A stretch of 41,914 nt of DNA from a virus. Under the pieces are notes generated by a model, which ran no database searches, had not been told where the DNA came from, and saw only the letters and a program-made list of their open reading frames with translations. Below, in pieces: positions 3,309 through 41,914 of the stretch (position 1 is the first letter of the stretch; each line of letters opens with the position of its first letter). The position numbers and the translations under genes were made by a program. The stretch covers positions 1 through 41,914 of IMG/VR virus record IMGVR_UViG_3300005732_000047; one strand, given 5' to 3'.

Positions 3309-4658
3309 ATGAACACATTCACATTAACAGGAACACTTAAGGACATCAACAACAACGCTATCTACGCTGGTAGGTATGTGAAGTTTCGAGTGACGGGTGC
3401 TGGAACGGATACGGATACTAGCACCGTCTATCCTAGACAGACGTTTAGCTTTGTGGTTCAGTCTGACGGGACGTTGGCTCCAGAGAACTCAGGCGACACA
3501 ATGGAGCTATGGGTGAATGGTGACAGTGGGGTTCGGTCTTACTACCGAATCTACCTGCCATGGCGAGAGGTCGTGGATGTGGTTCTGCCTAGTGCGGTTG
3601 ACGGAACTACGGTTGACCTTTCTACGATCATTGAGAGTTACCAGGTGGACGGTTCCACGCAGCAGAACACGACACTTGGGGATGCGAAGGCTTACACGGA
3701 TGTTCTAGCAGACGATCCGACTAACAACACGAGCTTTGACGCAGGGAATTGGCAAGATGCAATTCTGCCAACGCCTACCAACGAGTCCATCCTCAGAGGG
3801 GACGGAACCGACTGGGTGGGAGCTACTGAGTTCAGGGTTAATACTGGAACAAGTAATAGCGGCGTTGAGGTCGGTAGCGGTGCAACGGCAAATGGAGATG
3901 GATCGGTCGCCATTGGAAAAGACTCGGTTGCCTCTGGCGACAATTCCTTTGCATTTGGGGCGCAGGTTGGTGGCGCTGCGGCTGGTGCAACAGCATCGGG
4001 GGACTACTCTTTTGCCTTTGGAACGGATGCCGTCGCTGGAGGTAGTTTGTCGTTTGCGCTTGGAAGTCTAGCCGAAACAGATCCCACTGCTTCGCTTTCG
4101 GTGGCGCTAGGATACAGAGCAAAGGCCAACCACACTGGAAGCTTTGTCTTTGCTGATTTCACTGTCGCTGATGTGGAATCTACGGCAACCGATCAATTCA
4201 CGTGTAGGTTTAGCGGAGGATACGAGTTTAAGGGCGGAGACGCCAATTTTGAGTCAGGCTTATCCTTTTCTGGGGGTCAGGTGGTGGATACAATTGAAAC
4301 TACGCTGACAGATGACGACACACACATTCCTACTTCTGGTGCGGTGGTGGATTACGTCTCTGGGTTCAAAAAGGCAACGACTAGCGTAACATCCACGACC
4401 TACACAGTTCTATCAACGGATAGCGTGGTTCTAGTGGATGACGACACTGCGGCAGCAGAGGTCACTGTAACGCTATTGGCGGCTGCTACGGCGGGAGACG
4501 GATTCTTACTAAACATCAAGAAGACTGGCAGCACCGCAAATGTCGTCATTGACGGAAACGGAGCAGAGACAATCGACGGAGCAACCACAGCAACACTCAC
4601 CTCGCAATACGAATCAATCACGCTCGTCTGCGACGGGTCAAACTGGCACATTATTTAA
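3309..4658 (+). CDS. Tail fibre or adhesin with YadA-like head repeats
   Basis: This encodes 449 residues. The N-terminal 110 residues form a beta-rich domain like phage fibre attachment regions. The centre (about residues 185-285) carries repeats of the trimeric autotransporter head type, for example GDGSVAIGKDS and GDYSFAFGTDA. The C-terminus is a Thr-rich beta region ending in LVCDGSNWHII, a common closing motif of phage fibres. It probably forms a trimeric receptor-binding fibre. The next gene follows after 9 bases with a GGAG ribosome site. Confidence 0.75.
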   Translation: MNTFTLTGTLKDINNNAIYAGRYVKFRVTGAGTDTDTSTVYPRQTFSFVVQSDGTLAPENSGDTMELWVNGDSGVRSYYRIYLPWREVVDVVLPSAVDGTTVDLSTIIESYQVDGSTQQNTTLGDAKAYTDVLADDPTNNTSFDAGNWQDAILPTPTNESILRGDGTDWVGATEFRVNTGTSNSGVEVGSGATANGDGSVAIGKDSVASGDNSFAFGAQVGGAAAGATASGDYSFAFGTDAVAGGSLSFALGSLAETDPTASLSVALGYRAKANHTGSFVFADFTVADVESTATDQFTCRFSGGYEFKGGDANFESGLSFSGGQVVDTIETTLTDDDTHIPTSGAVVDYVSGFKKATTSVTSTTYTVLSTDSVVLVDDDTAAAEVTVTLLAAATAGDGFLLNIKKTGSTANVVIDGNGAETIDGATTATLTSQYESITLVCDGSNWHII

Positions 4659-4667
4659 GGAGAATCT

Positions 4668-5825
4668 ATGACTTACCAACCAAAATTCAATTCTTACACA
4701 TCTACCGACAACAGTAGCACATCAACTCTAACCAACGGCTCTACATTTACTGGAACGTGGGAGGACGTTAAGGAATACGAGAGTGTTATAGTTGCCGTTA
4801 CCGCCGACCAAGACGGTGTTTTTTACATCGACTTTAGCCCAGACGGAACGAACGCAGACAGCACTCTTACAAGATACTACAACACTTCCGACATCGAGGC
4901 TCCGCACAGGTTTACCATTACACGCAGATATTTCCGCGTAAGGTTTACGAATGACAGCGGTAGCGGCCAGTCAGCGTTCCGTCTACAAACTACCGTAAAG
5001 GCCGCATCTGCTAATTTGAATGCTCCCATTGATGGAACCCTGTCGAGGGACTACGATGCAACGGTTGTTCGTCCGACTAACTTTGATGATGAAGTTGCAA
5101 TGGGATTGCGCCAAGGCCACTCGACATGGAATAAGTTTGGGTTCAATGCAGACGTTGATAGCGGGTCCGAGGAAATCGTTGCAGCCTTTGGTGGAACTTT
5201 TTCCATAATGACGAGCGCAGATACTCTAGACGTTGTTAGTTCTAGCGCGAACGACACCTCAGCTGGAACGGGCGTAAGAACAATTGCGATTACAGGTGTA
5301 GATGCAAATAACTTAGAACAAACGGAAGTGGTTACTTTAAACGGAACAACCCCTGTCACTACATCGAACTCATGGCTGGGGGTTAATCGTGTCACTGTAT
5401 TGACAGCAGGTAGCGGCGGCGCACCCGCTGGCAACATCACGATTGACGACAACGGCAATTCGGTCGGAACTCAGGCATACTTACCAGCAGGGCAGAACGT
5501 AACCCAACAATGTATATTCCACACTCCGATAAACCAGACGTTTTTGTGTGACTTCATTTGGGCAAACATAAAAAAAGGTGCTGGTGATCCAATCGTCACC
5601 ATTTACCTTAGAAGTTACTCACGAGTAACTGGACTAACCTACGAGGTGGCTAGGTTTACTTTGGATGCTGATGTTGAACTCACAGGGCAAATATCCAACA
5701 CGAAGACACCGCTTGTCTTTACTGGTCGAGAAGTAATACAGATGGTTGCTGAGACCGACACTAACAACACCGAGGTCTCAGGTCGGTTCTCTGGAAAACT
5801 AATTAAATCTCCATCAGCGGAGTAA
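4668..5825 (+). CDS. Putative virion structural protein (tail or fibre component)
   Basis: This encodes 385 residues with an AAGGAGA ribosome site close to the ATG. It has two beta-rich parts. Residues 1-110 resemble a jelly-roll domain. Residues 150-260 contain the pattern VTLNGTTPVTTSNSWLGV followed by a Gly/Ser-rich strand region, which occurs in structural proteins of other phages. The C-terminal 100 residues are again beta-rich. There is no signal peptide. Its place between the tail fibre and other tail genes supports a virion role; the exact part is unknown. Confidence 0.65.
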   Translation: MTYQPKFNSYTSTDNSSTSTLTNGSTFTGTWEDVKEYESVIVAVTADQDGVFYIDFSPDGTNADSTLTRYYNTSDIEAPHRFTITRRYFRVRFTNDSGSGQSAFRLQTTVKAASANLNAPIDGTLSRDYDATVVRPTNFDDEVAMGLRQGHSTWNKFGFNADVDSGSEEIVAAFGGTFSIMTSADTLDVVSSSANDTSAGTGVRTIAITGVDANNLEQTEVVTLNGTTPVTTSNSWLGVNRVTVLTAGSGGAPAGNITIDDNGNSVGTQAYLPAGQNVTQQCIFHTPINQTFLCDFIWANIKKGAGDPIVTIYLRSYSRVTGLTYEVARFTLDADVELTGQISNTKTPLVFTGREVIQMVAETDTNNTEVSGRFSGKLIKSPSAE

Positions 5826-5828
5826 TCT

Positions 5829-7172
5829 ATGGCTAATTCACACGGCAGTCTAAGATGGAAACTATACGGAGGCGGCGCGGAGGTTGCGAAGCTTCCTAAT
5901 AGTCGCTATGCGGTCACTATTCGCTGCCAGTCTCACAATCTGACAAAGGACTGGTATTACGCGAACTTAGCAAATTTATTCAAAGACTTTGGTAGCGCCT
6001 ACGACCTTCCGCTAGAGGATGGCGATGAAGCGTCTAGCTCTTGGACTCCAGACGACGGTGAGGAATACCCAAATCTCAAGCTAATTAACATTGAGTATAA
6101 GTATATTCCAAACATGGATACACCTGTTCTGGAGTTCTCTTATGAGACGCTGACTAGCACATGGACAAACGAGGACAACGACCTAAACCCATTGTCGATC
6201 AATGGCCTTCGTGTTTTAGAGCAAAACCAAGTGGCGGTCAGCGGGACAGCATTGCCCTACGACGAGGATGACGTTGGTGTTGTTACGACTTCAGACGGAG
6301 GCAAGACGCTCTATCTGGCAGGTCTTGAGGATCGTTCGAGCGAGCGCAAGGGGCAGGTCACGCTAAGTTGGGCAGAGGCAGGAACTCTAAGTGAAACGGT
6401 TACACCAGAATCCACTGGTCTTAATCGAGTCAGCACAACATATTTAGCAGTAGAGCCAGCGACTTCTCACCCCGTTATTTCAAGAACCACCCAGAATGTA
6501 GAAGGACTCAAGACCATTACGGTTGTGACGCTTCAGCGTTCGGATGGCAGTGCCATTACGGACGGAAACCCAACCAACAGCTTCGGTCGGATGTATAACT
6601 TTGCATACCCAGGAGTTGTTGGCGTGTCCTCTGTGACAACCACAGCTATCTCTGGAGACACGGCAATCAACCGATTTTTCTACCAGCAATCCCCTACTGA
6701 GCGCCCGATTCCTGCAACGAGTTATGTGTTCTTTCAGACCGCATCTCAGCCAGTTGCGGGAGACTACACTTACGGTGGTGCTGTCGGCCTATGGTCTCCG
6801 TCCAACTGGGCGCGGGGAACTTATTACGGGTGGAGATACCAAGGATCTAACTTTGGAACACCGATAGGCGAGAATACAGGTTTTCGCGGATTCAGGACGG
6901 TTGAGGACGATAGCGAGATTTCGGGCGTTTTTACATCCATCAGTGGAACCGCTACTGACGACGACGGACTAAGTGGAACCTTGCTGCTGGACGGCACAAC
7001 CTACTCTATAAGTGTATCTGGTGGCCCAGAGAAGCCAGACGGGAAAACATACACCCTTGGGGTTATTGACATTGCTCCAGCATTCATTGATGTGGATGGC
7101 ACTCAATACTACAAGAAAATTATCACCGTAGCAACTATTCCGACCCAAAGCGGGTCTACTATTACAGGCTAA
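5829..7172 (+). CDS. Putative tail structural protein
   Basis: This encodes 447 residues and begins 3 bases after the previous stop. The start region has conserved-looking aromatic residues (KDWYYANLANLF). The middle is beta-rich, and a C-terminal domain of about 80 residues has alternating strands and many Thr, Ser and Gly. No enzymatic motif, signal peptide or coiled coil is seen. It overlaps the next ATG by one base (TAATG), so it is coupled to the small charged protein downstream. A tail or baseplate-like component is likely from context only. Confidence 0.6.
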   Translation: MANSHGSLRWKLYGGGAEVAKLPNSRYAVTIRCQSHNLTKDWYYANLANLFKDFGSAYDLPLEDGDEASSSWTPDDGEEYPNLKLINIEYKYIPNMDTPVLEFSYETLTSTWTNEDNDLNPLSINGLRVLEQNQVAVSGTALPYDEDDVGVVTTSDGGKTLYLAGLEDRSSERKGQVTLSWAEAGTLSETVTPESTGLNRVSTTYLAVEPATSHPVISRTTQNVEGLKTITVVTLQRSDGSAITDGNPTNSFGRMYNFAYPGVVGVSSVTTTAISGDTAINRFFYQQSPTERPIPATSYVFFQTASQPVAGDYTYGGAVGLWSPSNWARGTYYGWRYQGSNFGTPIGENTGFRGFRTVEDDSEISGVFTSISGTATDDDGLSGTLLLDGTTYSISVSGGPEKPDGKTYTLGVIDIAPAFIDVDGTQYYKKIITVATIPTQSGSTITG

Positions 7173-9850: not shown

Positions 9851-12705
9851 TGCCTACTTACGAACTCACAGATGATGCCACTGGAATGACCATCGAAATT
9901 GATGGTGCTCCAGAACTTACAGAATCCAGCGTGCGGTCCTATATGCAACAAGCTCGAAATCAGGCCGCTAAATCCATTGCGGACGGTAGCTACGAGCTAG
10001 ACGACGAGACGAAACTGCCGCTCAGCAAGGACCAGTCTCGCCAACGCTTGCAGAAATTCTCAGCATACGCTCTAGGTGTAAAACCTGAAGAAATAGATGT
10101 AGAATCAGGCATGGGCCTATGGGACCGAACAAAGCTATCATTCCAGCCAACCGAAGCTGACAAGATGAAGCAACTTGAGGACACTTATGGCAAGGAAAAC
10201 GTGGCGATGCTTGACGTAGGGGGGAACCCTAAGATGTTCTATCGAGACCCAAAGAGCAATAAGCTAACAATGGTTGATGAGCAAGGAGTATCCCTCGCTG
10301 ACTTCACCGCCGACATTGCTGGAACCGCGCTTCCCATAGCTGGAGCAATTGGAGCGGCAGTTGCAACTGGTGGAGCATCAATTCCAGTAACCGCCTTGGC
10401 TGCGGCTGGTGGTGGACTCGCTGCGGGGGTTGCTCAAGATGTTGGAGTTCGCGCTGCATCTGGAGAGGATATTCGATTCGGTGAGATCGCTAAGAGGCAG
10501 GCAATTACAAATGCCATCGGAATTCCAATCGACATGGTTACTGGTGTTGGCGGTCGAGTCCTAATGAAGACTGTTGGTCGCAGGGCTGTTGACCAGGGTT
10601 CAGCACAGCTAGTCAAGGGCATTGATGACATTATGGCTCGGTATGACGGTGATGGTGCTGTAAAGCTTACGGCAGCGCAGGAGGCAAGCACAGATGCGTC
10701 ACTCAAACAGAGTATTCGGGCAGGAATGGACCCCAATGGTTTAGAGGCTCGTGCATACGAGAGTCAACGTGACGAAATCCTAAAGTTGAATCGCGCCATT
10801 AAGGGCGAAGAAGTCCTAGATGAACCTATCGAGGATGTAATGCAGTCCGTAGCATCGCGCCAGATGCGCCTCCTTGACGCATACGAGGGTCGAGTTAAGA
10901 AGATGGCCGAAGCTAAGGCGGATGCGGAAATGGCCGTTAAGGGCCAAACAAAGGCGCAGGAGGCTCGGATCAGGAAAAAGCTTCTGGATGATGCAGACCT
11001 TGAGATTAGGGCGATGCGCGAGCAAGCTGAAGCTGGCATTAAGAAATTAACCAAGGGCAAGCAACGCTTAACATCTGCCATTGGAGACGACATTCGTGGA
11101 CAGCAAGAGCAAGCCTTCAAAGCCGTTGACCAAGAGAGCAAGGATCTTTACGAAGAGGCATATCGAAGACTAGACACTCCGCAGGCGAATACACCTGTAT
11201 CGGAGATTGACAGGGTTCTCTCAAGGATTGACGATGCGGCCCTTGACGAGGCGGCTCCAGAGCTTGCGGCAGTCAAGCGACTTCGTGCGCGTGTTGCGGA
11301 TACCACAAAGCCAGCGGAGTTGACATTCAGAGAGCTTGACCGATACCTGAGAGAAATCACAGATAAGATCAACTACAAGAAAAAGGTTGGCGTAGGTGAG
11401 TCAGAGTATCAGTTACAGCAGATAGGAAAGAAGCTCGATAAGTTGCGCGATACAGCTATGGGCGCACCGAAGACTGCTGGTGCTCGCGGCGCAGGTAAAC
11501 CTGCGCGAGACGCATACATGAAGGCAAAGCGCAACTACCGAAACAAGGTGCTTCCATACTTTGACGGTGATCGTGCTGCGAACCTTGGCCGCGTGTTAGG
11601 CGGATCGGCTGAATCGGTGGGTGCGCGTGGCGAGAACGTCCTCAATCGAACCCTAACAACCAAGGGATCAATTGAGGATGCCATAAAATCTGGAGTCAGC
11701 AGAAAGTCACTGCAAGAGGCGTATATCGAAAAGATTGTTCAAGATGCGGCTGGTGGGCCAATTGTCATTGACCGCAATCTGATAAACGCGCTCTACAAGG
11801 GCAGAGCCAACAAGATCGTTTCAGACCTCAATACCATCAATAAGAACATCAAGGCGGGTGGTGCTAAGGCTAAGGTTTCTGCCGAGGAGATTGATGCTGT
11901 CCTCAAAGAGTTCGATCCTCCAGCACGAGCTAAGAAGTTGCGGGCCATTGCTGAGAAAGAGGCGACGGAGAAGAAGATGGCCCAAGCTCGACAATCAGCA
12001 CTTGGGAAGATCATCAAGGGTGAGATTCCAACACCAGATGACATTCACCACTTCGTTGACGACATCTCTAATCTGCGACCAGGCCAGATTGAGAAGCTAA
12101 AGGCTCGACTTCCAAATGAAAGTCAGCGCAGATCGCTAGAGCGAAGTGCCATTGATCGCCTATATGAAGAAGCTGGTCAGCTATCGGCTAAAGCCCAACG
12201 GTCGGGTCGCAAGACAGGCCGAGAAGCGTTATGGGAACCAGATAAGATGTTTGACATCCTTAATAACTCAAAGAAGAGGGCGCAATGGGAGTCACTTATT
12301 GGCAAGCAAACCGTCAAGGACATCGAAGACCTGAATCGCTGGTTGTTAAGCTCTGCTGAGATCAGGGAAACCACACAAGAGGGTATTGGTCGCTTTGTCA
12401 CATCTACTGGCGCAAGCGGTGTTCCAAGCATCCTCTTTGTTTCTCCACAGCTACCACGTTGGCTTGGAAGAAAGATGCTTGGTGTAATTCATACGTCTCC
12501 GCTGGCTCGCGGCATGATGGTTCGACACCTAAAGGAAGGTGATATTGACGAAGAACTGTTCCAGCGACTATTCTACATGACTATGGGAACGCAGCGCGGG
12601 ATGGATGCTGTCTCTTCTGAGATGGCAAAAGACCCAGCATTCTCGGAGTGGATGCGCGAGTCGGTAAAGGGGGCTGGCATGGAATCGACTGCCCATGGCG
12701 AGTAG
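9850..12705 (+). CDS. Large internal virion (ejection) protein
   Basis: This encodes 951 residues, the largest protein in the genome. The first 45 residues resemble the short N-terminal module of phage internal proteins (YELTDDATGMTIEID). Residues 155-200 hold a hydrophobic Gly/Ala segment (AGAIGAAVATGGAS onwards) that could insert into membrane. The rest is very long charged alpha helix and coiled coil with many Lys, Glu, Ala and Arg. The pattern fits proteins ejected with the DNA to build a trans-envelope channel. No lysozyme motif was seen. It is the last gene of the rightward arm. Confidence 0.7.
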   Translation: MPTYELTDDATGMTIEIDGAPELTESSVRSYMQQARNQAAKSIADGSYELDDETKLPLSKDQSRQRLQKFSAYALGVKPEEIDVESGMGLWDRTKLSFQPTEADKMKQLEDTYGKENVAMLDVGGNPKMFYRDPKSNKLTMVDEQGVSLADFTADIAGTALPIAGAIGAAVATGGASIPVTALAAAGGGLAAGVAQDVGVRAASGEDIRFGEIAKRQAITNAIGIPIDMVTGVGGRVLMKTVGRRAVDQGSAQLVKGIDDIMARYDGDGAVKLTAAQEASTDASLKQSIRAGMDPNGLEARAYESQRDEILKLNRAIKGEEVLDEPIEDVMQSVASRQMRLLDAYEGRVKKMAEAKADAEMAVKGQTKAQEARIRKKLLDDADLEIRAMREQAEAGIKKLTKGKQRLTSAIGDDIRGQQEQAFKAVDQESKDLYEEAYRRLDTPQANTPVSEIDRVLSRIDDAALDEAAPELAAVKRLRARVADTTKPAELTFRELDRYLREITDKINYKKKVGVGESEYQLQQIGKKLDKLRDTAMGAPKTAGARGAGKPARDAYMKAKRNYRNKVLPYFDGDRAANLGRVLGGSAESVGARGENVLNRTLTTKGSIEDAIKSGVSRKSLQEAYIEKIVQDAAGGPIVIDRNLINALYKGRANKIVSDLNTINKNIKAGGAKAKVSAEEIDAVLKEFDPPARAKKLRAIAEKEATEKKMAQARQSALGKIIKGEIPTPDDIHHFVDDISNLRPGQIEKLKARLPNESQRRSLERSAIDRLYEEAGQLSAKAQRSGRKTGREALWEPDKMFDILNNSKKRAQWESLIGKQTVKDIEDLNRWLLSSAEIRETTQEGIGRFVTSTGASGVPSILFVSPQLPRWLGRKMLGVIHTSPLARGMMVRHLKEGDIDEELFQRLFYMTMGTQRGMDAVSSEMAKDPAFSEWMRESVKGAGMESTAHGE

Positions 12706-14217: not shown

Positions 14218-14901
14218 TTAAAGAAACAAAGGTTCAAAAAAAGCAAGCCTTGAGCTATACACCACACCACAGCCAACAATCGGCTTGGCAGCATAAACCC
14301 GTCCGTATGACATCGCTGGATTGTTGTGATCCACACCGCAACCAACCTGCATACCAAACACGCAGTCGTTCTGGTTGGCGTGATAAACAACACCAGCTTG
14401 AGCGTGTAAGTGTCCCTGGACAAGCGAGCAGAACTCAGCCATGCTATTCTTGTGTGCGGCCATTTGACCTCCCTTGGCTTTATCTCCGTGGCGGTATACA
14501 ACATCGTCAATGATAAGGTCGTGGAACCGAGGGTGGATTGTCCAGCCGTCCAGCCCCCACAGCGTCTTGAAGTCGCACAGCACTTCCTCTGGCAAGCCTA
14601 TGGTCTGAGCCTTTCTGGATGGCAGAGAGTCGTGATTCCCAATCAGGTGATCAACCTTCGGAAAAGCCTTGTGCAGCCGCCTGACCTGCTTTAGTGCCTC
14701 TCGGTATTCCTCTGCCGCGCTAGGCATGGATGGGTCTTTTTCGTGGTAACTGATTGCAGACCAATCGACAAGATCGCCAATGTGAACCACTCGGTTACAC
14801 TTATGCTTCTTCTCAATCTTCTTGAGGAAGCTGATATATTGTGGGTGCATTGCTGGCGCGTGGCAATCACCTATAACGAGAACTCTGTTTTGTTTAGCCA
14901 T
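14218..14901 (-). CDS. Calcineurin-like metallophosphoesterase
   Basis: This encodes 227 residues with the ordered motifs of the family: GDCH (11-14), IGDLVD (41-46), GNHD (88-91), a later His in RHGD (138) and GHLH (163-166). These bind two metal ions and hydrolyse phosphate esters. Phage members can act on nucleic-acid ends, nucleotides or proteins; the substrate here is unknown. It follows a small gene after 5 bases and ends 40 bases before the next unit. Confidence 0.85.
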   Translation of the reverse strand: MAKQNRVLVIGDCHAPAMHPQYISFLKKIEKKHKCNRVVHIGDLVDWSAISYHEKDPSMPSAAEEYREALKQVRRLHKAFPKVDHLIGNHDSLPSRKAQTIGLPEEVLCDFKTLWGLDGWTIHPRFHDLIIDDVVYRHGDKAKGGQMAAHKNSMAEFCSLVQGHLHAQAGVVYHANQNDCVFGMQVGCGVDHNNPAMSYGRVYAAKPIVGCGVVYSSRLAFFEPLFL

Positions 14902-25772: not shown

Positions 25773-26130
25773 AGCAGAGTTTCATAGGCGGCATGTCCCG
25801 CTATGATTCCGATGGAGTCTCTAATTCCATTGCTTTCGAGATGAGCCTAGCCGATTTCTTACGGTTGCCCTTTCTGCCTGCGATCTAGCTGTCGATTCCT
25901 GCATTCGTATATCACCGTCACTTTCGTCCCATCCAAGCTATTAAACTCTGCAAAACTTCACCTGGTATTACGGGTTAGTCGATTACTGAATCGCCGCATA
26001 TCTCTATTAACTAGGGTTTACGTGTCACCCATAAACGCGAGCCTTGTTTCATGCCCTGACTGTAAATTGATCCCCGCCTTGCCTACATCAGTAAGCAAGC
26101 GTCGCTTTGCCATTCGGCAAGGCAGGGAAA
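25773..26130 (-). other. Gene-free region with many hairpins, possible structured RNA
   Basis: There is no credible reading frame on either strand. The minus strand has several short perfect hairpins, for example CGATT-CAGT-AATCG and GTTTA/TAAAC around TGGGTGACACG. At its right end, CCCCGCCTTGCC (26072-26083) pairs with GGCAAGGCAGGG (26116-26127) in 11 of 12 positions. It lies between the putative small RNA and the HNH gene. It was compared by eye with group I intron core motifs without a match. Confidence 0.4.
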
Positions 26131-26250
26131 AGAACAAAAAGAAACCCCGAACTCAGGTAGCTGCACTTGCTGTGAACGGGGTTCCCCCGCTTGGCGGGGT
26201 AAAATGTTTACTTGCGGTGCAGCCGCTAAGATAGAGAATCTGTAAAAGAA
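26128..26250 (-). ncRNA. Putative attenuator-like small RNA
   Basis: Read leftward from a TATAAT-containing promoter, the transcript would be about 120 bases with no open frame. It contains four pairing strands in order: CCCCGC (26199-26194), GCGGGG (26190-26185), AACCCCG (26183-26177 complement region) and CGGGGTT (26049-side of the T-tract, 26149-26143). Strands 1:2 and 3:4 make a hairpin plus a terminator followed by TTTCTTTTTG, while 2:3 makes a competing hairpin. GCTGCAC near the 5' end can pair with GTGCAGC in the terminator loop (pseudoknot). The RNA is inferred from sequence only. Confidence 0.5.
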
Positions 26251-26256
26251 CAGTTC

Positions 26257-26281
26257 CATTATACGGACTTCGCCATTTTTT
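26257..26281 (-). promoter_or_regulatory. TGGCGAA-TATAAT element, leftward copy
   Basis: Minus-strand AAAAAATGGCGAA, a few bases, then CGTATAATGG matches the two rightward elements at 35608 and 37989 in the order and spacing of TGGCGAA and TATAAT. It is flanked by GTTCCA and TGGAAC arms. It would start transcription near 26250. Confidence 0.55.
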
Positions 26282-31383: not shown

Positions 31384-31418
31384 TTGACACGTAGTTTATA
31401 ATCGGCATAAATATCGAC
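31384..31418 (+). promoter_or_regulatory. Leaderless promoter for the small-gene and terminase operon
   Basis: TTGACA at 31384-31389, a 17-base spacer, ATAAAT as -10, and an ATG 35 bases after the start of the -35. No Shine-Dalgarno site. Just upstream lies a reverse-oriented partial copy of the TTGGCGAA element (TTCGCCAATTT). Confidence 0.65.
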
Positions 31419-32139: not shown

Positions 32140-32694
32140 ATGGACGAACCTGCACCACTAATGACCAAGCTGGAGGAGCAAGCTCACGAAGCCTTGCGTA
32201 ATCACCAAAAGGACTGCTATTACACGGACGTTGCTGTTCTGAGGCCAGAGGTATGGAAGAATACTGCCGTTGCCATTCTACAAGGGGCTGGTTGCCGACC
32301 AACGATGAAGTCTCTGAACATTACGCAGCACACCTACTACAAGGTTAAGAAGGCTTTGTTCGCCACTCACGACGACTACCGCAAGCACGTGGCAGAATTA
32401 GCCCATGTAACACAGGCAATTAACGACGACAACAAGCAGAAGTTGTCTCAGATTATTGGCGACAGACTATCCAAGAAGGAAACTCTGGACTCCAAGGAAC
32501 TGCTAGACTTGGCGAAGGCACAGAAGGAAATGAGTGTAACGGGTCAGATTGACGCACAGCGCATTCAGAGGCTTGAGGGCGACGCTGACATGATTATTCG
32601 CCACGAGAAGGCCAAGACACCAGAGGAATTGCAGAAGGACTTTGAGGACAAGTTCTTAGCTGACATTAAAGAAGCGGAGGTCATAGATGGGTAA
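32140..32694 (+). CDS. terS: Putative terminase small subunit
   Basis: This encodes 184 residues. A helix-turn-helix-like segment is at about 40-75 (AVAILQGAGCRPTMKSLNITQHTYYKVKKA). It is followed by long charged helices (LSQIIGDRLSKKETLD, LLDLAKAQKEM), as in oligomeric small terminase subunits that bind the packaging site. It lies one short gene upstream of the large subunit, the usual place. The assignment rests on position and helical pattern more than sequence identity. Confidence 0.65.
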   Translation: MDEPAPLMTKLEEQAHEALRNHQKDCYYTDVAVLRPEVWKNTAVAILQGAGCRPTMKSLNITQHTYYKVKKALFATHDDYRKHVAELAHVTQAINDDNKQKLSQIIGDRLSKKETLDSKELLDLAKAQKEMSVTGQIDAQRIQRLEGDADMIIRHEKAKTPEELQKDFEDKFLADIKEAEVIDG

Positions 32695-35011: not shown

Positions 35012-35437
35012 ATGAAATGTAAAGATATAGCAAACGAGTATCAAGTCACGGCCATGCAGGTCGGGCGGGTGCGACGAAAACTGAATCCAGACCACGACGG
35101 AGGGGATTTATCAAGCGACGAGGTAGAAGCTCTACGTTGTTACTTTGACGAACTAGAGGGCGTTTTGGAACGCAAAGAAATGGAGAAATCCGTTGAGCCG
35201 CAATATGTTGAGGGCTACGTCAGCTACGTCCAGCATGGGCGACGCGAGGTTGAGTGCAAGATTCGTGATGGTGGTCAAATCAAGACCGTCTACGCTCTAG
35301 TGCCAACCTCTGTTGATCCAGTTCGGATTCTCAACACAAGCATTAAACTGGAGTGGATTGAATACAATGATAAGAAATTCTACCGACACGCATCACTCGC
35401 AAACGTCGCATGGCCAAAGGGATATGGGGCGCACTAA
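35012..35437 (+). CDS. Hypothetical protein with HTH-like start (141 aa)
   Basis: This encodes 141 residues from MKCKDIANEYQVTAMQVGRV; the first 22 residues look like a helix-turn-helix. A helix of Glu/Leu residues follows, then a beta-rich second half (EGYVSYVQHGRREVECKIRDGG) that could be an SH3-like or OB-like domain. The start at 35012 is favoured over a TTG at 34958. A role in DNA packaging or regulation of late genes is possible; nothing specific is known. Confidence 0.6.
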   Translation: MKCKDIANEYQVTAMQVGRVRRKLNPDHDGGDLSSDEVEALRCYFDELEGVLERKEMEKSVEPQYVEGYVSYVQHGRREVECKIRDGGQIKTVYALVPTSVDPVRILNTSIKLEWIEYNDKKFYRHASLANVAWPKGYGAH

Positions 35438-35630
35438 TAAAGATCAGAAGGAAGCGGCTGACGCTTGGTTGGCGTGGGAACTCCTGCGCCGAGGCGTGTT
35501 GCTTGGCTGCATTCCACCTATGGAGCAAGCTGACATCGTAGAGGTTTGTGGCTTCCCGCACCACCAGACGCTCTCTCAAAGAGTGGGCAAAGGATTGAAG
35601 AAGGCTAAAAAATTGGCGAATCCTGTATAA
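35424..35630 (+). CDS. Small HTH-like protein (68 aa)
   Basis: This encodes 68 residues from ATG 35424 (ribosome site AAAGGG). Two helices and a turn, with VEVCGFPHHQTLSQRV as a possible recognition segment and a basic tail (GLKKAKKLANPV), suggest a small DNA-binding protein. The last codons overlap a TGGCGAA-TATAAT promoter element that precedes the portal gene, so it could regulate it; this is inference. Confidence 0.6.
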   Translation: MGRTNKDQKEAADAWLAWELLRRGVLLGCIPPMEQADIVEVCGFPHHQTLSQRVGKGLKKAKKLANPV

Positions 35631-35632
35631 TA
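35608..35632 (+). promoter_or_regulatory. TTGGCGAA-TATAAT element before the portal gene
   Basis: AAAAATTGGCGAA, two bases, then CTGTATAATA. The element differs from the copy at 37989 in two or three of 25 bases. TATAAT (35626-35631) ends 8 bases before the portal ATG, so the mRNA would be leaderless or nearly so. No TTGACA box lies at the usual distance. Confidence 0.65.
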
Positions 35633-35639
35633 GCGGTAT

Positions 35640-37739
35640 ATGTCCAACGAACTTATTGAGGGCTTGGCGTATGCCAAAGACGCCCCAGACCTTCAATCTA
35701 TCTCTCACATCTATGAGCTAGACAAGTCTAACCACTCTGGCTACGCCGATCAGTGCCGAGACTCACGCAACCAGCGTGTAAACTGGTGGCCAGGTAAATC
35801 GCTGGACTTAAAGAAGCATGGCGTAGATGCAATGCCTTGGCCTGGGGCGTCTGACGTTGAGGTTCCAGTCTACGACGTAAGAGCGAACACGTTGATAGCT
35901 TACATGATGAATGCGGTTCGTGATGGCAATATCACGGCTAACCCCATTGGCGGGAATGATGTTGAGAGGTCTGCTTCTGCCTCTGTGTTTTCTAGGTGGA
36001 TGTTGGACACATGGATTCCTAGAGCCTACGACCACATTGAGTTGTCTCTAAACAATATGCTAGAGAAGGGCATTGCCGCTACGTGGATTGGCTGGCAAAA
36101 GCAAAACAGACCACATCTCGAAAAGATTGATATCGAAATCGTCGCAGAGGCAGACCCAGAGCTAGCCGAATTGCTTTTGGACGAGGACAGGGAAGAAGAA
36201 GTCATTGCTATTTTCCAAGAGCAGTATGAGTTTGCCAACGCCAAGGAAATAAAGAAGGCACTAAAAGAGCTACGCAAGAACGGAGTTGCAGAGGTTCCAG
36301 TAGTTAAACAGGACATAAATCGTCCAATCATCGAGGCCAAGTGCCCACGGGCTGATATTATCTTCCCGTCCTACACGATGGACATTGAGGACGTAGATCG
36401 CGTCCATGTTCGTCACTTCATGTCGATTCAAAGCCTCAAGGCCGCGCAGACGGCAGAAGGGTGGGACAAGGAATGGGTAGAGGAGATTATTGATAAGCAC
36501 ATGGGTGTTACCCAAGGAGACATCGAGGGGCAGTATGGCAATCGAAACCCATTTGTTGCTAATCAGACTGCTACTTTGTTCAATGCTGGCAACCGCGACG
36601 CTCAAGACCTTGTTGAAGTTGTTCGGACGATTCAGGTGCTTGTAGACGAGAAGACTGGCGCAAAGGGGTATTACCAAACAGTGTGGTGTCCTAAGCAGTT
36701 GTCGCTAGGCAAGGGCAAGGCTACCGACCAGTATGGTATTTTTGAGCTTTTGAACGGGTGGGATGAATTGCCAATCGCAATCACCACAATGACCCGCGAC
36801 AGCAAAAACATTTACGACCAGCGAAACATGGGTGATTTGCTTCGTGGCAATCAGCGGTTGACAAAGGTAACGCGGGATTCATTCGTAGACCAACAAAGCC
36901 TGCACCTTAACCCGCCACGAACGCACCCCGCTGGTCGTCCTGCTTCTACATGGGGAGCAGGGGCAGACTTTGCCACTAGGCGCGGGGAGGAGAATCTATA
37001 CCGCACACTAGACATTCCTTCGACAATGCGCGAAGGGGTAGAGATGGAGAAGTTCCTAGAGGAAGAAGCAGACAGAATCATGGGGCTGTCCGAGGATTCG
37101 GAGAACTCTTTGGTTCGCAGACAGTATTTTATCAATCGTGCGCTCGTGCATGTTTCTGAGATTATGCGTCTAGCTTACAAAGCGTTCCAGAAGTTCTACG
37201 ACGGTGAGGACATTTACTTCCGAGTTACGGATAGTCCAGATCCCCAGACGTTCAATCGTTCTCCAATGGACGAGGAAATGGATATTAAGTTCTTCTACGA
37301 TGTTCGCCGTGGAGACCCTGCCTACATCAAGGAGTCTTCTAACTTTGCACTATCATTGCTCCAGAACGACACAGACGGTGTGTTTGATCGCAGCAAGGTG
37401 CTTCGCATTCTAGCTAACCTGAACTTGCCTCAATACGCTGGAAGCATGGAGAAGCCAGCCGAGCAAGCAACCGCTGATGTTCAAAAGAATGTAGCAGAAG
37501 ACTTGACCATGATCTTCGCTGGCAACACCGTGAATGCCCGACCGCAAGGCGCAAATGTAGCACTGGAGTATATTCAGGGCTATACGCAACAGCCAAGTAT
37601 CCAAGCCAGAATGCAGTCTGATCCGAACTACGCTCAAGCTCTTGGAGCATATGTTCAGCAGTATCAGTTCCAAATTCAGCAAGCACAGAACGCTGTTACG
37701 GGACGACTTGGCGCACCCGCACAAGACATTAGTAACTAA
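35640..37739 (+). CDS. Portal protein
   Basis: This encodes 699 residues, the size of the large portals of short-tailed phages. N-terminal clip/wing features include NQRVNWWPGKSLDLKKHG and MPWPGASDVEVPVYDVRANTLIAYMM (residues about 40-85). A helical middle has an acidic Glu-rich hinge (about 175-215), and the Gln-rich C-terminus (YVQQYQFQIQQAQ) is like the barrel helices. It forms the ring through which DNA is packaged and ejected, and partners terminase and the adaptor. The start has no Shine-Dalgarno site. Confidence 0.8.
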   Translation: MSNELIEGLAYAKDAPDLQSISHIYELDKSNHSGYADQCRDSRNQRVNWWPGKSLDLKKHGVDAMPWPGASDVEVPVYDVRANTLIAYMMNAVRDGNITANPIGGNDVERSASASVFSRWMLDTWIPRAYDHIELSLNNMLEKGIAATWIGWQKQNRPHLEKIDIEIVAEADPELAELLLDEDREEEVIAIFQEQYEFANAKEIKKALKELRKNGVAEVPVVKQDINRPIIEAKCPRADIIFPSYTMDIEDVDRVHVRHFMSIQSLKAAQTAEGWDKEWVEEIIDKHMGVTQGDIEGQYGNRNPFVANQTATLFNAGNRDAQDLVEVVRTIQVLVDEKTGAKGYYQTVWCPKQLSLGKGKATDQYGIFELLNGWDELPIAITTMTRDSKNIYDQRNMGDLLRGNQRLTKVTRDSFVDQQSLHLNPPRTHPAGRPASTWGAGADFATRRGEENLYRTLDIPSTMREGVEMEKFLEEEADRIMGLSEDSENSLVRRQYFINRALVHVSEIMRLAYKAFQKFYDGEDIYFRVTDSPDPQTFNRSPMDEEMDIKFFYDVRRGDPAYIKESSNFALSLLQNDTDGVFDRSKVLRILANLNLPQYAGSMEKPAEQATADVQKNVAEDLTMIFAGNTVNARPQGANVALEYIQGYTQQPSIQARMQSDPNYAQALGAYVQQYQFQIQQAQNAVTGRLGAPAQDISN

Positions 37740-37741
37740 GC

Positions 37742-37990
37742 ATGAACGAGATAACATACGAACAAGCATTAAAGTATTTTCAATCGCATGACCTTTACTG
37801 GGCTGCGTTTATTGATGGAATCGTTGCAAAGCGAGAAGGCTACATTGCCGACATGAAGCGAAATATGGAAACACCTAACTGCAACGACTCCGCACGTTTT
37901 GAAGTAAACGGTGCTATTGTCGCTATGGATGACCTAGTTTACGACTTCAAACTGCCAGCCAGAGACAGTTCTGACGTAGAGCCAGAATAA
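37742..37990 (+). CDS. Hypothetical protein (82 aa)
   Basis: This encodes 82 residues: helical, acidic at the end (RDSSDVEPE), with aromatic residues (ALKYFQSHDLYWAAFIDGI). The ATG is 2 bases after the portal stop. No family is recognised. Its place between portal and scaffold suggests a head-assembly helper. Confidence 0.6.
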   Translation: MNEITYEQALKYFQSHDLYWAAFIDGIVAKREGYIADMKRNMETPNCNDSARFEVNGAIVAMDDLVYDFKLPARDSSDVEPE

Positions 37991-38013
37991 AAATTGGCGA
38001 ACTCTGTATAATA
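37989..38013 (+). promoter_or_regulatory. TTGGCGAA-TATAAT element before the scaffold/capsid genes
   Basis: AAAAATTGGCGAA, two bases, then CTGTATAATA, nearly identical to the element at 35608. TATAAT is at 38007-38012 and the scaffold ATG at 38051, leaving a leader of about 30 bases that contains a TACAAC/GTTGTA inverted pair. It is a candidate late promoter. Confidence 0.65.
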
Positions 38014-38050: not shown

Positions 38051-39169
38051 ATGACAGATCAAACAGTAGAGGGCAGCTCTGATAGCCCCACAGTAATATC
38101 AGATGACGGGTCTTTGAACGAATCAGCTTTTTTAGCTGCACTAGGACAAAGCCGCCCAACTAGCACAGATGAAACACCGTTGGCCGAGAAATTGGTTGAG
38201 GAACCTGCTCAGGAAGAAGTCGAGGAAGTTGAGGAAGAAGCCGAAGTAGTGGCGGAAGACGAAACAACCGAAGAAGAATCTGAGGAAGTGACAGAAGAAA
38301 CGGTAGAAGAATCTGAAACTGGTGAAGATGTTCTTTCTCAAATCGACTGGGAAAATGCTGACTGGGACAACTTCGATGCTGAGTCTATTCCAAAAGAAGC
38401 GCGGATCAAGATTGCCGACTTATTCGGTGGTTCAGTAGGTCACGCTATTGGAGAGCTAAGAAAGAAGTATGGAGAAGAAAAACGGATGCGGGAAGCCGCA
38501 GAAGCTCAACTCCGAGAAGGTCTTGACGGCATCAGTAATACACCTACGGAATTTAAGGAATTGTCTAGCCTGGATGATTTAGATAACAAGTCTACAGAAT
38601 GGCGAAACTCCCTTAAATACGCCAATCAACTGCTCAACAAAACAGATGAGTATTTTGAAATCAACGGAGACGATGTTTCCCGCGACACATTGGTTCAGTG
38701 GAGAGATTACTGGGAAGGACTTGTTGATAAGGTTCCAGAACAACGTCAACGACTAAAAGACCTAAGTGGCTATTCCGCCTCGGAGGTAATGAAGTCAATT
38801 ACGACAGATGTTCCAGACCTATCCAACGAAGAATCCGAAGCCTATCAAGAATGGAAAAAGATCGTAGATGACCCCAAGATGGCGGTCATTAAGCAGATTG
38901 CTCCACGACAGTATGCTGAGATTCAGAAGATGGCCGCGCACAGCGTAGCCTATACGTTGAAGAAGCAGGTTCCACGAAGCACAAAGATTCCACTAAAGAA
39001 GCCTAAGAGTATTGGCACTAAGTCTGCCGCAGCACCAACATCAAATGTTCGCGGCGCACCAAAGCACATACAGGATTCACGTAGTCGTATCGTCTCAGGA
39101 GAATATAACGAGAAAGACATTGAAATATCACTGTTTAGTCAAGGTGGAGCATTCGCTCCTAAATCTTAA
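38051..39169 (+). CDS. Putative scaffolding protein
   Basis: This encodes 372 residues. A very acidic N-terminal region (about 40-100; EEVEEVEEEAEVVAEDETTEEE) is followed by helical, coiled-coil-like segments (GELRKKYGEEKRMREAAEAQL) and a basic C-terminal tail (KIPLKKPKSIGTKSAAAP). This is the classical scaffold layout, with a basic tail that binds the capsid protein. It lies immediately before the major capsid gene. No protease motif was seen, so the scaffold may leave intact. Confidence 0.75.
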   Translation: MTDQTVEGSSDSPTVISDDGSLNESAFLAALGQSRPTSTDETPLAEKLVEEPAQEEVEEVEEEAEVVAEDETTEEESEEVTEETVEESETGEDVLSQIDWENADWDNFDAESIPKEARIKIADLFGGSVGHAIGELRKKYGEEKRMREAAEAQLREGLDGISNTPTEFKELSSLDDLDNKSTEWRNSLKYANQLLNKTDEYFEINGDDVSRDTLVQWRDYWEGLVDKVPEQRQRLKDLSGYSASEVMKSITTDVPDLSNEESEAYQEWKKIVDDPKMAVIKQIAPRQYAEIQKMAAHSVAYTLKKQVPRSTKIPLKKPKSIGTKSAAAPTSNVRGAPKHIQDSRSRIVSGEYNEKDIEISLFSQGGAFAPKS

Positions 39170-39189
39170 TCACAAACAACTAATATACA

Positions 39190-40161
39190 ATGGCATCAGC
39201 AAATTCATATGACCTAACTAATCCAGGTTCAGCGGTATCTAACCGCGAGGACTTGGAGCAGGGCGTCTACCTTATCGACCCTGCAAATGCTCCTATGTGG
39301 ACAAACGCCACAAAAGAGCGCACAGACAACCCTAATCCTGAATGGAGTCTCGACAAGTTTGACGACGTAGACACTACTCAGATTGCCGAAGGCGCAGACG
39401 CGGTTTCGTTCGACAATGAATACGAGGACTTGGTTCGCGTTTCTAACTACGTCGGTATTACCCAGAAGAAATTCAAGGTTACTGACGTTCAAGAGAAGAC
39501 TGACTCTGCTGCTGGCGCAAACTACGCTGGCTCTGCGATGAAGGCTCTCAAGGAGTTGGATCGTAACACCGAGGCAATCATCCTTGGCACACAGGCAAAG
39601 GCTATTAGCGGTGCTACACGCACAACTGAAGGTCTTGGCGCACAGCTTAACACTACAACTAACATCTTCCCAGCTGATTATCAGATTCCAGCAGCACAGC
39701 TTGTTTCTGGAACAGCACCAACGGAAGTCAATGTTGACACTGTTTTGCGTAGTATCCGCGACAACTGTGGCGAGCCTAAGCACCTGAAAATCTTCGGTGG
39801 TTCTACATGGATCAACGCATTTGCGGCTAACACAATGCGCCTCCAGTCTTCTGACGACAACCGCACGACTGTTAATATCAACGGTCAAGACGGAACAATC
39901 GTCAACAAGATCCGCCTATATGAAGGTCAAGATGGTTCTGTCGAGCTTGTCACGCTTAATGCTGACACTCTCTACGACACAACTAACAAGGACATGGCTT
40001 ACTTCATCGACAGCGACTACTTCTCCGTAAAGGAAATGGGTGGTCTTGTTCAGAAGGAACTCCCTGATCTTGGTGGTGGCCGTCGTGCTGTCTTCAAGCG
40101 TTACTTCGCACCTTGCATTAAGAATCCTAAGGCTTGTGCCTACTGGGATGCTATTGCTTAA
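39190..40161 (+). CDS. Major capsid protein (SU10/DUF5309-like, HK97 fold)
   Basis: This encodes 323 residues. The N-terminus (DLTNPGSAVSNREDLEQGVYLIDPANAPMW) and later strands (VSNYVGITQKKFKVTD, AMKALKELDRNTEAIILG) resemble the SU10-type capsid family with HK97 fold. GGLVQKELPDLGGGRRAVFKRYF near the end is typical. It forms the shell around the DNA. Codon use favours C-ending and T-ending codons more than neighbours, as is usual for a highly expressed gene. It has no classical Shine-Dalgarno site. Confidence 0.85.
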   Translation: MASANSYDLTNPGSAVSNREDLEQGVYLIDPANAPMWTNATKERTDNPNPEWSLDKFDDVDTTQIAEGADAVSFDNEYEDLVRVSNYVGITQKKFKVTDVQEKTDSAAGANYAGSAMKALKELDRNTEAIILGTQAKAISGATRTTEGLGAQLNTTTNIFPADYQIPAAQLVSGTAPTEVNVDTVLRSIRDNCGEPKHLKIFGGSTWINAFAANTMRLQSSDDNRTTVNINGQDGTIVNKIRLYEGQDGSVELVTLNADTLYDTTNKDMAYFIDSDYFSVKEMGGLVQKELPDLGGGRRAVFKRYFAPCIKNPKACAYWDAIA

Positions 40162-40689: not shown

Positions 40690-40728
40690 GGAGGGGAGGG
40701 TTTCGGCCTTCCCCTCCACCCCTTTTTT
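40690..40728 (+). terminator. Strong terminator after the capsid genes
   Basis: GGAGGGGAGGG (40690-40700) pairs with CCTTCCCCTCC (40707-40717) around TTTCGG in an 11-base stem, followed by CACCCC and six T. It lies 9 bases after the decoration gene. The next gene starts 6 bases after the T-tract, so downstream genes depend on read-through or another promoter. Confidence 0.85.
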
Positions 40729-41063: not shown

Positions 41064-41914
41064 ATGAGCCTTAGCACCGACACATACGACAACCTGAAGC
41101 TGCACACGGAGGCGATGTGTGGCAACACCTTTCACGGCGACGAGGCCATCTTTTTTCAGCGCAACGTAAACCTTGCAGCAAGCAGAGCCTACGGAGCTTC
41201 CTCTTGGTGGGAACGCTTTCTTGTGGTATCTGAGCCAAGGACGGTAACTCGCGGAGACGTAGACTTCACCGAGGACAGCTTTCAAGTCTACGGCGCGGGA
41301 ACAGCCGACGTAAATGGTCTGTATGTTCGCAACGGAACAGTAAACAGCAAGGCTAAGTATACGCTCTATGAGAGCGATGGAACTACCGCACTGTATGACA
41401 TTGAGTGGGACAACTCTAGTAAGTGGGAGATTCTAACACAAGCAGACGCGGTGCTCTATGACATCACAGACTCAAGTGCTACGCCCCCGACAAGCGGTTG
41501 GGCGGCAAACACTGGAACAGCACCAGCGCCGTTACTCGTGGACGTATCGGAAATCGGAACTGTTTTACAAGTCAACCGTTACGATTTAATCCAGGACGGA
41601 AACCCATACTCTCCGATTAAATACCATGTTACTGCGCGAGGAATCACTCTGCATGATCAAGATGTAGACACCGTTTATGTAACCTACAAGAAGCCACTCA
41701 GCGACAAATACGGAGACGGAACAGGTGGCACAGTTTCCGCGATTCCTTCTGAGTGGTTCGACTACATTGCCTTGTATGCGGCACGACTTTACCAAATCTC
41801 CAACCGTCAAAGCAACCCTAATCCAATGGCTACGATTGCGAGCCGAGAGGTTGATGAGGCGTTGCAGGACGCTAAGATGAAACTGGAGGAGCAAAACATT
41901 TCAAACTCGGTGGC
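41064..41914 (+). CDS. Head-tail adaptor-like protein with an inserted domain (continues at base 1)
   Basis: The frame starts at ATG 41064 and runs off the window; it continues at bases 69-111, giving 297 residues. The N-terminal and C-terminal helical parts (LKLHTEAMCGNTFHGDEAIF; WFDYIALYAARLYQISN) look like an adaptor that joins the portal ring to the tail. Between them (about residues 75-145) sits a beta-rich insert with the pattern DVNGLYVRNGTVNSKAKY, W-D, and a later TPPTSGW, which resembles a small repeated domain in other phage and bacterial surface proteins. Naming of the adaptor is by position and fold pattern. Confidence 0.6.
   Translation, partial: MSLSTDTYDNLKLHTEAMCGNTFHGDEAIFFQRNVNLAASRAYGASSWWERFLVVSEPRTVTRGDVDFTEDSFQVYGAGTADVNGLYVRNGTVNSKAKYTLYESDGTTALYDIEWDNSSKWEILTQADAVLYDITDSSATPPTSGWAANTGTAPAPLLVDVSEIGTVLQVNRYDLIQDGNPYSPIKYHVTARGITLHDQDVDTVYVTYKKPLSDKYGDGTGGTVSAIPSEWFDYIALYAARLYQISNRQSNPNPMATIASREVDEALQDAKMKLEEQNISNSV
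41847..41914. repeat. Terminal direct repeat, right copy
   Basis: This is identical over 68 bases to positions 1-68 and lies in the same reading frame of the adaptor gene. It shows the window is a closed or terminally redundant genome. Confidence 0.95.

Follow-up and report, generated by a model that had tools for sequence, protein, structure and literature searches.

Predicted promoters of one class before the portal and scaffold genes of an aquatic phage family, with an upstream box that changes between lineages

Two nearly identical TATAAT-containing elements lie upstream of the portal gene and the putative scaffold gene in a viral genome from IMG/VR (IMGVR_UViG_3300005732_000047, 41,914 nt; the whole stretch is referred to here as the window). 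This raises the question of whether they are promoters of one class for the virion genes, and what would read them in place of a -35 element. The 41.9-kb record comes from an aquatic virus with a bacterial host, and its family is large and unclassified, consisting of Phage C75C1 and IMG/VR contigs. The phage family is abundant and mostly uncultured; we found no literature on how its genes are controlled and no paper on C75C1. Positions 1-68 and approximately 41847-41914 repeat each other; since the last ~68 bases equal the first, the window is probably a complete, circularly closing genome.

Repeated elements and their genes in the window

The element reads AAAAATTGGCGAA-N2-CTGTATAATA and occurs on the plus strand at 35608-35632 (copy 1, AAAAATTGGCGAATCCTGTATAATA) and 37989-38013 (copy 2, AAAAATTGGCGAACTCTGTATAATA). 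Direct reading gives 23 of 25 identical bases, and the mismatches are confined to the two "free" bases, which confirms the near-identity claimed in the initial annotation. That annotation also proposed a motif search of the full genome. With the 20-mer TTGGCGAANNCTGTATAATA at up to 3 mismatches, the whole window gave three matches and no others: copies 1 and 2 and a diverged copy 3 on the minus strand at 26281-26257 (AAAAAATGGCGAAGTCCGTATAATG, 3 mismatches). Shuffled windows (n = 100) gave a mean of 0.02 matches and never reached three. When the 20 nt 5' of TATAAT were compared in fixed register, copies 1 and 2 agreed at 16/20 positions, a level reached among 83,788 window positions by this pair only. 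Copy 3 scored 15/20 in the same register, for which we estimate about 0.8 expected by chance, yet it is in register with TATAAT. In all three copies TATAAT qualifies as a -10 element by the sigma-70 criterion. No -35-like hexamer was found at 16-18 bp spacing (at 17 bp: ggctaa in copy 1, agaata in copy 2), the extended -10 TGn is absent before TATAAT in the window copies (CTG, CTG, CCG), and a sigma-70 consensus scan of the window reported neither copy 1 nor copy 2.

Copy 2, the predicted scaffold promoter (37989-38013, plus strand), has its box TTGGCGAA at 37994-38001 and TATAAT at 38007-38012. It is intergenic, overlaps at its first bases the stop codon that ends ORF 37742-37990, and stands 38 nt 5' of the ATG of the putative scaffold ORF (38051-39169, plus strand, 372 aa). 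This ORF has no Pfam or PHROG match and is named from its position between the portal and capsid genes, which is the same in 13/13 genomes. It is followed by the major capsid protein gene (39190-40161, plus strand; domain match to SU10_MCP, PF17236), one further ORF, and a terminator-like hairpin at 40690-40717 (plus strand, consensus match only). This gene order and the hairpin indicate that copy 2 heads a compact capsid unit. The context TATAAT-N6-ATCG before the scaffold gene is kept in relatives at the corresponding place, which points to a start 7 nt beyond TATAAT, at A38019 (ATCGCC...) in the window. In the L139, L118 and L066 loci and their relatives a conserved hairpin, ATCGCCATCGCTCGGCGTT, seems to form the 5' end of the scaffold mRNA, with a Shine-Dalgarno-like sequence after it; the hairpin is a possible mRNA stabiliser.

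Copy 1, the predicted portal promoter (35608-35632, plus strand; box TTGGCGAA at 35613-35620, TATAAT at 35626-35631), lies within the final codons of ORF 35424-35630, the TAA stop codon of which is inside TATAAT. The downstream ORF (35640-37739, plus strand, 699 aa) encodes a portal protein with homologues that include database-named portal proteins. Its ATG is 8 nt after TATAAT and has no Shine-Dalgarno sequence. When the 7-nt spacing of the scaffold copy is applied here, the start would fall at 35638, 2 bases 5' of the ATG (predicted range 35638-35640). The distance from TATAAT to the portal ATG is 7-8 nt in the window, G004 and C75C1 lineages, and the portal mRNA should therefore be leaderless or nearly leaderless. 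A leaderless portal transcript had been claimed before, and the spacing supports it, being kept in relatives whose portal is just 36% identical. In published work genes have been called leaderless when a -10 box lies in the -14 to -8 range before the ATG (PMC3160421); at the window portal the second-position A is 13 nt before the ATG. Among 640 ORFs of 13 genomes, 15 have TATWAT 5-12 nt before the start codon and 7 of these are portals, that is, 7/13 portals vs 8/627 other ORFs. A Shine-Dalgarno core precedes just 14 of the 58 window ORFs of at least 80 aa, so starts of this kind are normal for the window genome. Three genomes that lack the portal promoter (G010, G012 and G014) carry TGTGATATAAT upstream of a different small gene, at a spacing that would make its mRNA leaderless, which suggests that leaderless late promoters recur across the phage family. 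The leaderless-spaced TGTGATATAAT or TTATGATATAAT sites are at 10466 and 16660 in G010, 32338 in G012 and 34237 in G014; they have AACCCC-like bases on the 5' side and precede a conserved gene of 85-89 aa and, in one case, a 492-aa gene.

Copy 3 (26257-26281, minus strand) has the box ATGGCGAA at 26276-26269, TATAAT at 26263-26258 and a predicted start at about 26251. A leftward terminator-like hairpin at 26360-26339 precedes it by 58 bp, and it points into a 676-bp stretch without a convincing gene. Here it would start a predicted short structured RNA of ~120 nt (26128-26251, minus strand; fold z = -3.4) with a T-rich tail at its end. The next RNA in the same direction is a DUF3800-VIII RNA (RF03075; 26068-26131, minus strand; 41.5 bits vs a gathering threshold of 40.2), which was not found in G004 or C75C1. 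The third copy described in the initial annotation is real, at 3 mismatches, but no counterpart was found when G004 was searched. Judged by sequence alone, copy 3 is probably a promoter.

The promoter pair in related phages

Relatives were collected through the portal protein. G004 (43.6 kb), L004 and L005 have portals 70% identical to that of the window, and Phage C75C1 has one that is 36% identical. Alignment and C75C1-portal searches gave at least 580 contigs; 80 from each search were used. One relative comes from a 10-kb contig that had been placed in an Opitutae MAG, a link too weak for naming a host. The exact window motif is absent from G004, L004, L005 and L006 and had zero matches in all IMG/VR contigs searched. 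Two looser 15-base patterns hit 20 and 31 stretches in IMG/VR, which is about the chance expectation by our estimate, and they were discarded.

Portal copy counterparts are nevertheless present in G004, L004, L005, C75C1 and many contigs. In G004, L004 and L005, TATAAT stands 7 nt before the portal ATG and the box TTGGCGAA is missing; G004 and L004 also have TATAAT before the scaffold gene at the corresponding place. The boxes themselves differ: the two G004 copies read GCAACGCAAG and the two L004 copies GTAACGCAAG, and L005, a contig that stops within the portal gene, has a single copy with GTGACGCAAG. Comparison of the window with G004 shows the same change in both copies at seven positions (-14 to -10, -7 and -2 relative to TATAAT), and from -14 to -6 there are 0 discordant positions. 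The upstream regions of the portal and scaffold copies of the same genome match at 16/20 positions in the window, 15/20 in G004, 15/20 in L004, and 12/20 in both C75C1 and G009 (the C75C1 value is equalled by 118 of 78,928 positions). Coding constraint cannot account for this match since the scaffold copy is intergenic and the portal copy coding, and the similarity stops at the element ends, which argues against gene conversion. A trans-acting reader is better supported by the joint change of the box at the same two places in G004 and L004 than it would be by conservation. The initial annotation had taken absence of the motif from the same places in related phages as evidence against a promoter class. 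The exact motif is indeed absent there, yet G004 and L004 share a different box at both places, and a motif missing in a relative is no refutation when the pair turns over jointly.

In more distant relatives the box takes a different form. C75C1 and its relatives have TTGATTaATGTGtTATAAT before the portal gene, with 8 nt to the ATG, and the L102 lineage has GTTGATACGTGTGATATTAT, with 12 nt to the ATG; the scaffold promoters of C75C1-type phages are CTTGTATAAGGTTGTATAAT or CTTGATACATAAGTTATAAT. The family form found repeatedly at the portal and scaffold genes is TTG-N10-TATAAT, which puts the TTG box one DNA turn nearer to the -10 than a normal -35 (7 vs 17 bp spacing). In a divergent set from which near-duplicates had been removed at 70% identity over 24 nt, TTG starts exactly 13 nt before the -10 in 13/16 portal and 14/27 scaffold promoters; nearly every other offset has ~0-1 such cases, the exception being five scaffold sites that form a TTG16 subclass. 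When the TATWAT sites of 13 genomes were compared, TTG stood at offset 13 in 13/51 of those near ORF starts, a few of which may be coincidental, vs 19/791 elsewhere (p = 4.6e-9), and the sites near ORF starts show no TTG excess at the 16-18 bp spacing of a -35 element. Most portal copies of the C75C1-type relatives have an extended -10 TGn. Some relatives, for example L006 and many loci of the co-occurrence survey, have no such promoter by the patterns used. In that survey the two promoters tend to be present or absent together: 30 de-duplicated loci have both, 4 the portal promoter only, 8 the scaffold promoter only and 43 neither (Fisher 1.5e-11). The genomes' own portal-scaffold pairing was equalled by 6 of 20,000 shuffles of partners, and the window and G004 pairs contribute most to this result. 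These p-values overstate independence because the loci are phylogenetically related, and the 70% de-duplication is a partial correction.

Ordinary promoters appear to exist in the same family. The TTGACA-N7-TATAAT at 31384-31402 of the window was considered as a member of the class and rejected, since G008 and G009 have canonical TTGACA-N16-TATAAT promoters at their similar sites. The window site precedes ORF 31419 and is likely kin of the canonical early promoter of these two genomes. The canonical promoters of G008 and G009 suggest that ordinary -35/-10 promoters are used elsewhere in the family, which makes the absent -35 at the portal and scaffold genes more telling. The earlier proposal of a promoter class without a -35 at these two genes is thus supported, both by the missing hexamer and by the recurrence in relatives. 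Three other candidates were dropped. An additional TTGGCGAA at 31375-31356 on the minus strand lacks a TATAAT and is at chance level; the palindrome GGCGA...TCGCC around the scaffold -10 of the window is absent in G004 and L004; and a sigma-54 -24/-12 reading of TTGGC does not fit, as there is no GC pair at the right spacing and relatives keep the TTG without GGC.

Proposed reading, candidate readers and alternatives

We consider it fairly probable that both copies are virion-gene promoters composed of TATAAT and a box at -25 to -18 that replaces the -35 element, read by one trans-acting factor. Copy 1 would serve the portal gene and copy 2 the scaffold-capsid unit. In place of the -35 element, specificity would lie in the box (about -25 to -18), and transcription by the host RNA polymerase would begin some 7 nt beyond TATAAT, at the portal ATG or no more than 2 nt from it, and ~32 nt before the scaffold ATG. 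The box (TTG 13 nt before TATAAT in the family, TTGGCGAA in the window) would be read by a single factor, most likely phage-encoded and made ahead of the virion proteins, that directs the polymerase to both promoters; as its specificity drifts, both boxes would change together. Judging by the genes served, the pair may well be the switch to late expression. More tentatively, as a proposal on which we lean slightly to the doubtful side, TTG-N10-TATAAT may define a widespread, previously undescribed late-promoter class of a large aquatic phage family, in which a phage factor re-aims the host polymerase and drifts jointly with its boxes, giving lineage-specific promoter codes at fixed genome positions. 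The result supplies a concrete definition of predicted late promoters for the family and narrows their expected transcription starts to a few bases; if the reading is right, it is also a natural experiment on a regulator that changed along with its two target sites.

Pfam and PHROG scans covering most of the ORFs recognised no sigma factor or known activator, no relative of MotA or AsiA, and no sigma domain (a very diverged one might escape). Several HTH proteins are encoded, and none is linked to the box, so that picking one reader among them is a guess. The initial annotation suggested binding by the HTH-like proteins at 35424 or 26449. The latter has no Pfam or PHROG match. The small HTH-like ORF at 35424-35630 (plus strand, 68 aa), the 3' end of which includes copy 1, is modelled as three helices (pLDDT 68) with no PDB match, and its recognition region evolves fast. 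It has relatives in G004, L004, L005, L006 and G010-G014, but none adjoining the portal gene in C75C1 and G005-G009; as C75C1-type phages keep the promoter pair without it next to the portal, it is weakened as a candidate and is not the general reader. A second candidate, a 184-aa TerS-like protein with an HTH and a long helix (32140-32694, plus strand), lies upstream of TerL in 13/13 genomes. It resembles a small terminase, has no fold match at E <= 0.001, and is just 28% identical between the window and G004. The 141-aa protein with an HTH-like N terminus between TerL and portal (35012-35437, plus strand) is a weaker candidate, because its N terminus is nearly identical in the window and G004 whereas the box differs.

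Several other explanations have to be weighed. The box might be a basal element read by the host polymerase itself, through sigma region 3, the beta-prime zipper or a relocated sigma region 4, with lineages differing through their hosts. The almost invariant TTG at offset 13 in TTG13 lineages and the TGn of many portal copies, an extended -10 able to replace a -35 in known promoters, are in keeping with this, as are the non-canonical contacts of RNA polymerase at -17/-18 (PMC5101437). These contacts, however, lie nearer to the -10 than the TTG at -25 to -23, and TGn is absent from the window and G004 copies. Although without the TTG, G004 has one long specific box common to both copies, and 12-16 matching positions are more than a basal element needs; we therefore regard it as unlikely. 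It is very improbable that the element is no promoter at all and is instead a packaging site, a replication-related repeat or a short recent duplication. There are just two or three copies in the window genome, one of them in coding sequence, as such a site might have, but TATAAT keeps a fixed distance to the start codons of the same two genes despite portals 36% identical, the TATAAT-N6-ATCG start-site context before the scaffold gene is conserved, and a duplication would leave the box change at both places in G004 unexplained.

The sign of the predicted factor is a separate matter. A protein bound at -25 to -13 would also be well placed to repress, which counts against the activator reading, and sequence alone cannot decide between activator and repressor. 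The box could then be an operator at which a phage repressor covers -25 to -13 of both promoters until late infection. Its position overlaps the polymerase footprint, as is typical for repression, and an operator-repressor pair would co-drift in the way seen between the window and G004. A fixed TTG phase in very divergent phages would nevertheless be unusual for a free-moving operator, and the promoters would have to be strong without a -35 and, in the window and G004, without an extended -10; we judge this improbable.

Comparison with known phage promoters and other observations

The predicted activator promoters resemble several known systems in part, those of T4 and P23-45 in function and those of phiEco32 and 7-11 in evolution. 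T4 middle promoters keep TATAAT, and the MotA box is centred near -30. In place of the -35 element these promoters have a phage-specific box, which a phage activator reads once sigma region 4 has been displaced (PMC7403470). The arrangement with MotA and AsiA is alike in having a box in place of the -35, but here the box lies at -25 to -18 and has another sequence. The late promoters of Thermus phage P23-45 (gp39) are of the extended -10 class and little affected by displacement of sigma region 4 from the -35 (PMC7403470); selection there combines this displacement with TGn, in contrast to the long specific box common to both copies here and the window and G004 copies that lack TGn. Phages phiEco32 and 7-11 have late promoters at similar genome positions with unlike consensus sequences, and sigma factors that are 15% identical (PMC8948821). 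As here, positions are conserved and the motif turns over; however, their consensuses (tAATGTAtA; GTAAtg-16-aCTA) do not keep TATAAT, whereas the -10 here is canonical, and they have phage sigma factors (gp36, gp47), whereas the ORF scans here recognised nothing sigma-like. By these comparisons the window promoters do not appear to belong to the T4 middle, the P23-45 or the phiEco32/7-11 class. The portal gene also resembles leaderless genes with a -10 box before the start codon, with an extra upstream box that is common to the scaffold promoter.

Some differences between the window and G004 (L009) were noted outside the promoters. The TerL ORF of G004 (4165-6786) is 873 aa long vs 589 aa in the window and ~550 aa in others, and may contain an intein or other insertion. 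G004 has a cluster of four tRNA genes (Ser, Ser, Met, Thr) at 2498-2827 that is absent from the window. The metallophosphoesterase gene at 14218-14901 (minus strand) of the window is 83% identical to that of G004, whereas most other early genes share little or nothing; this likeness may reflect recent exchange or strong constraint.
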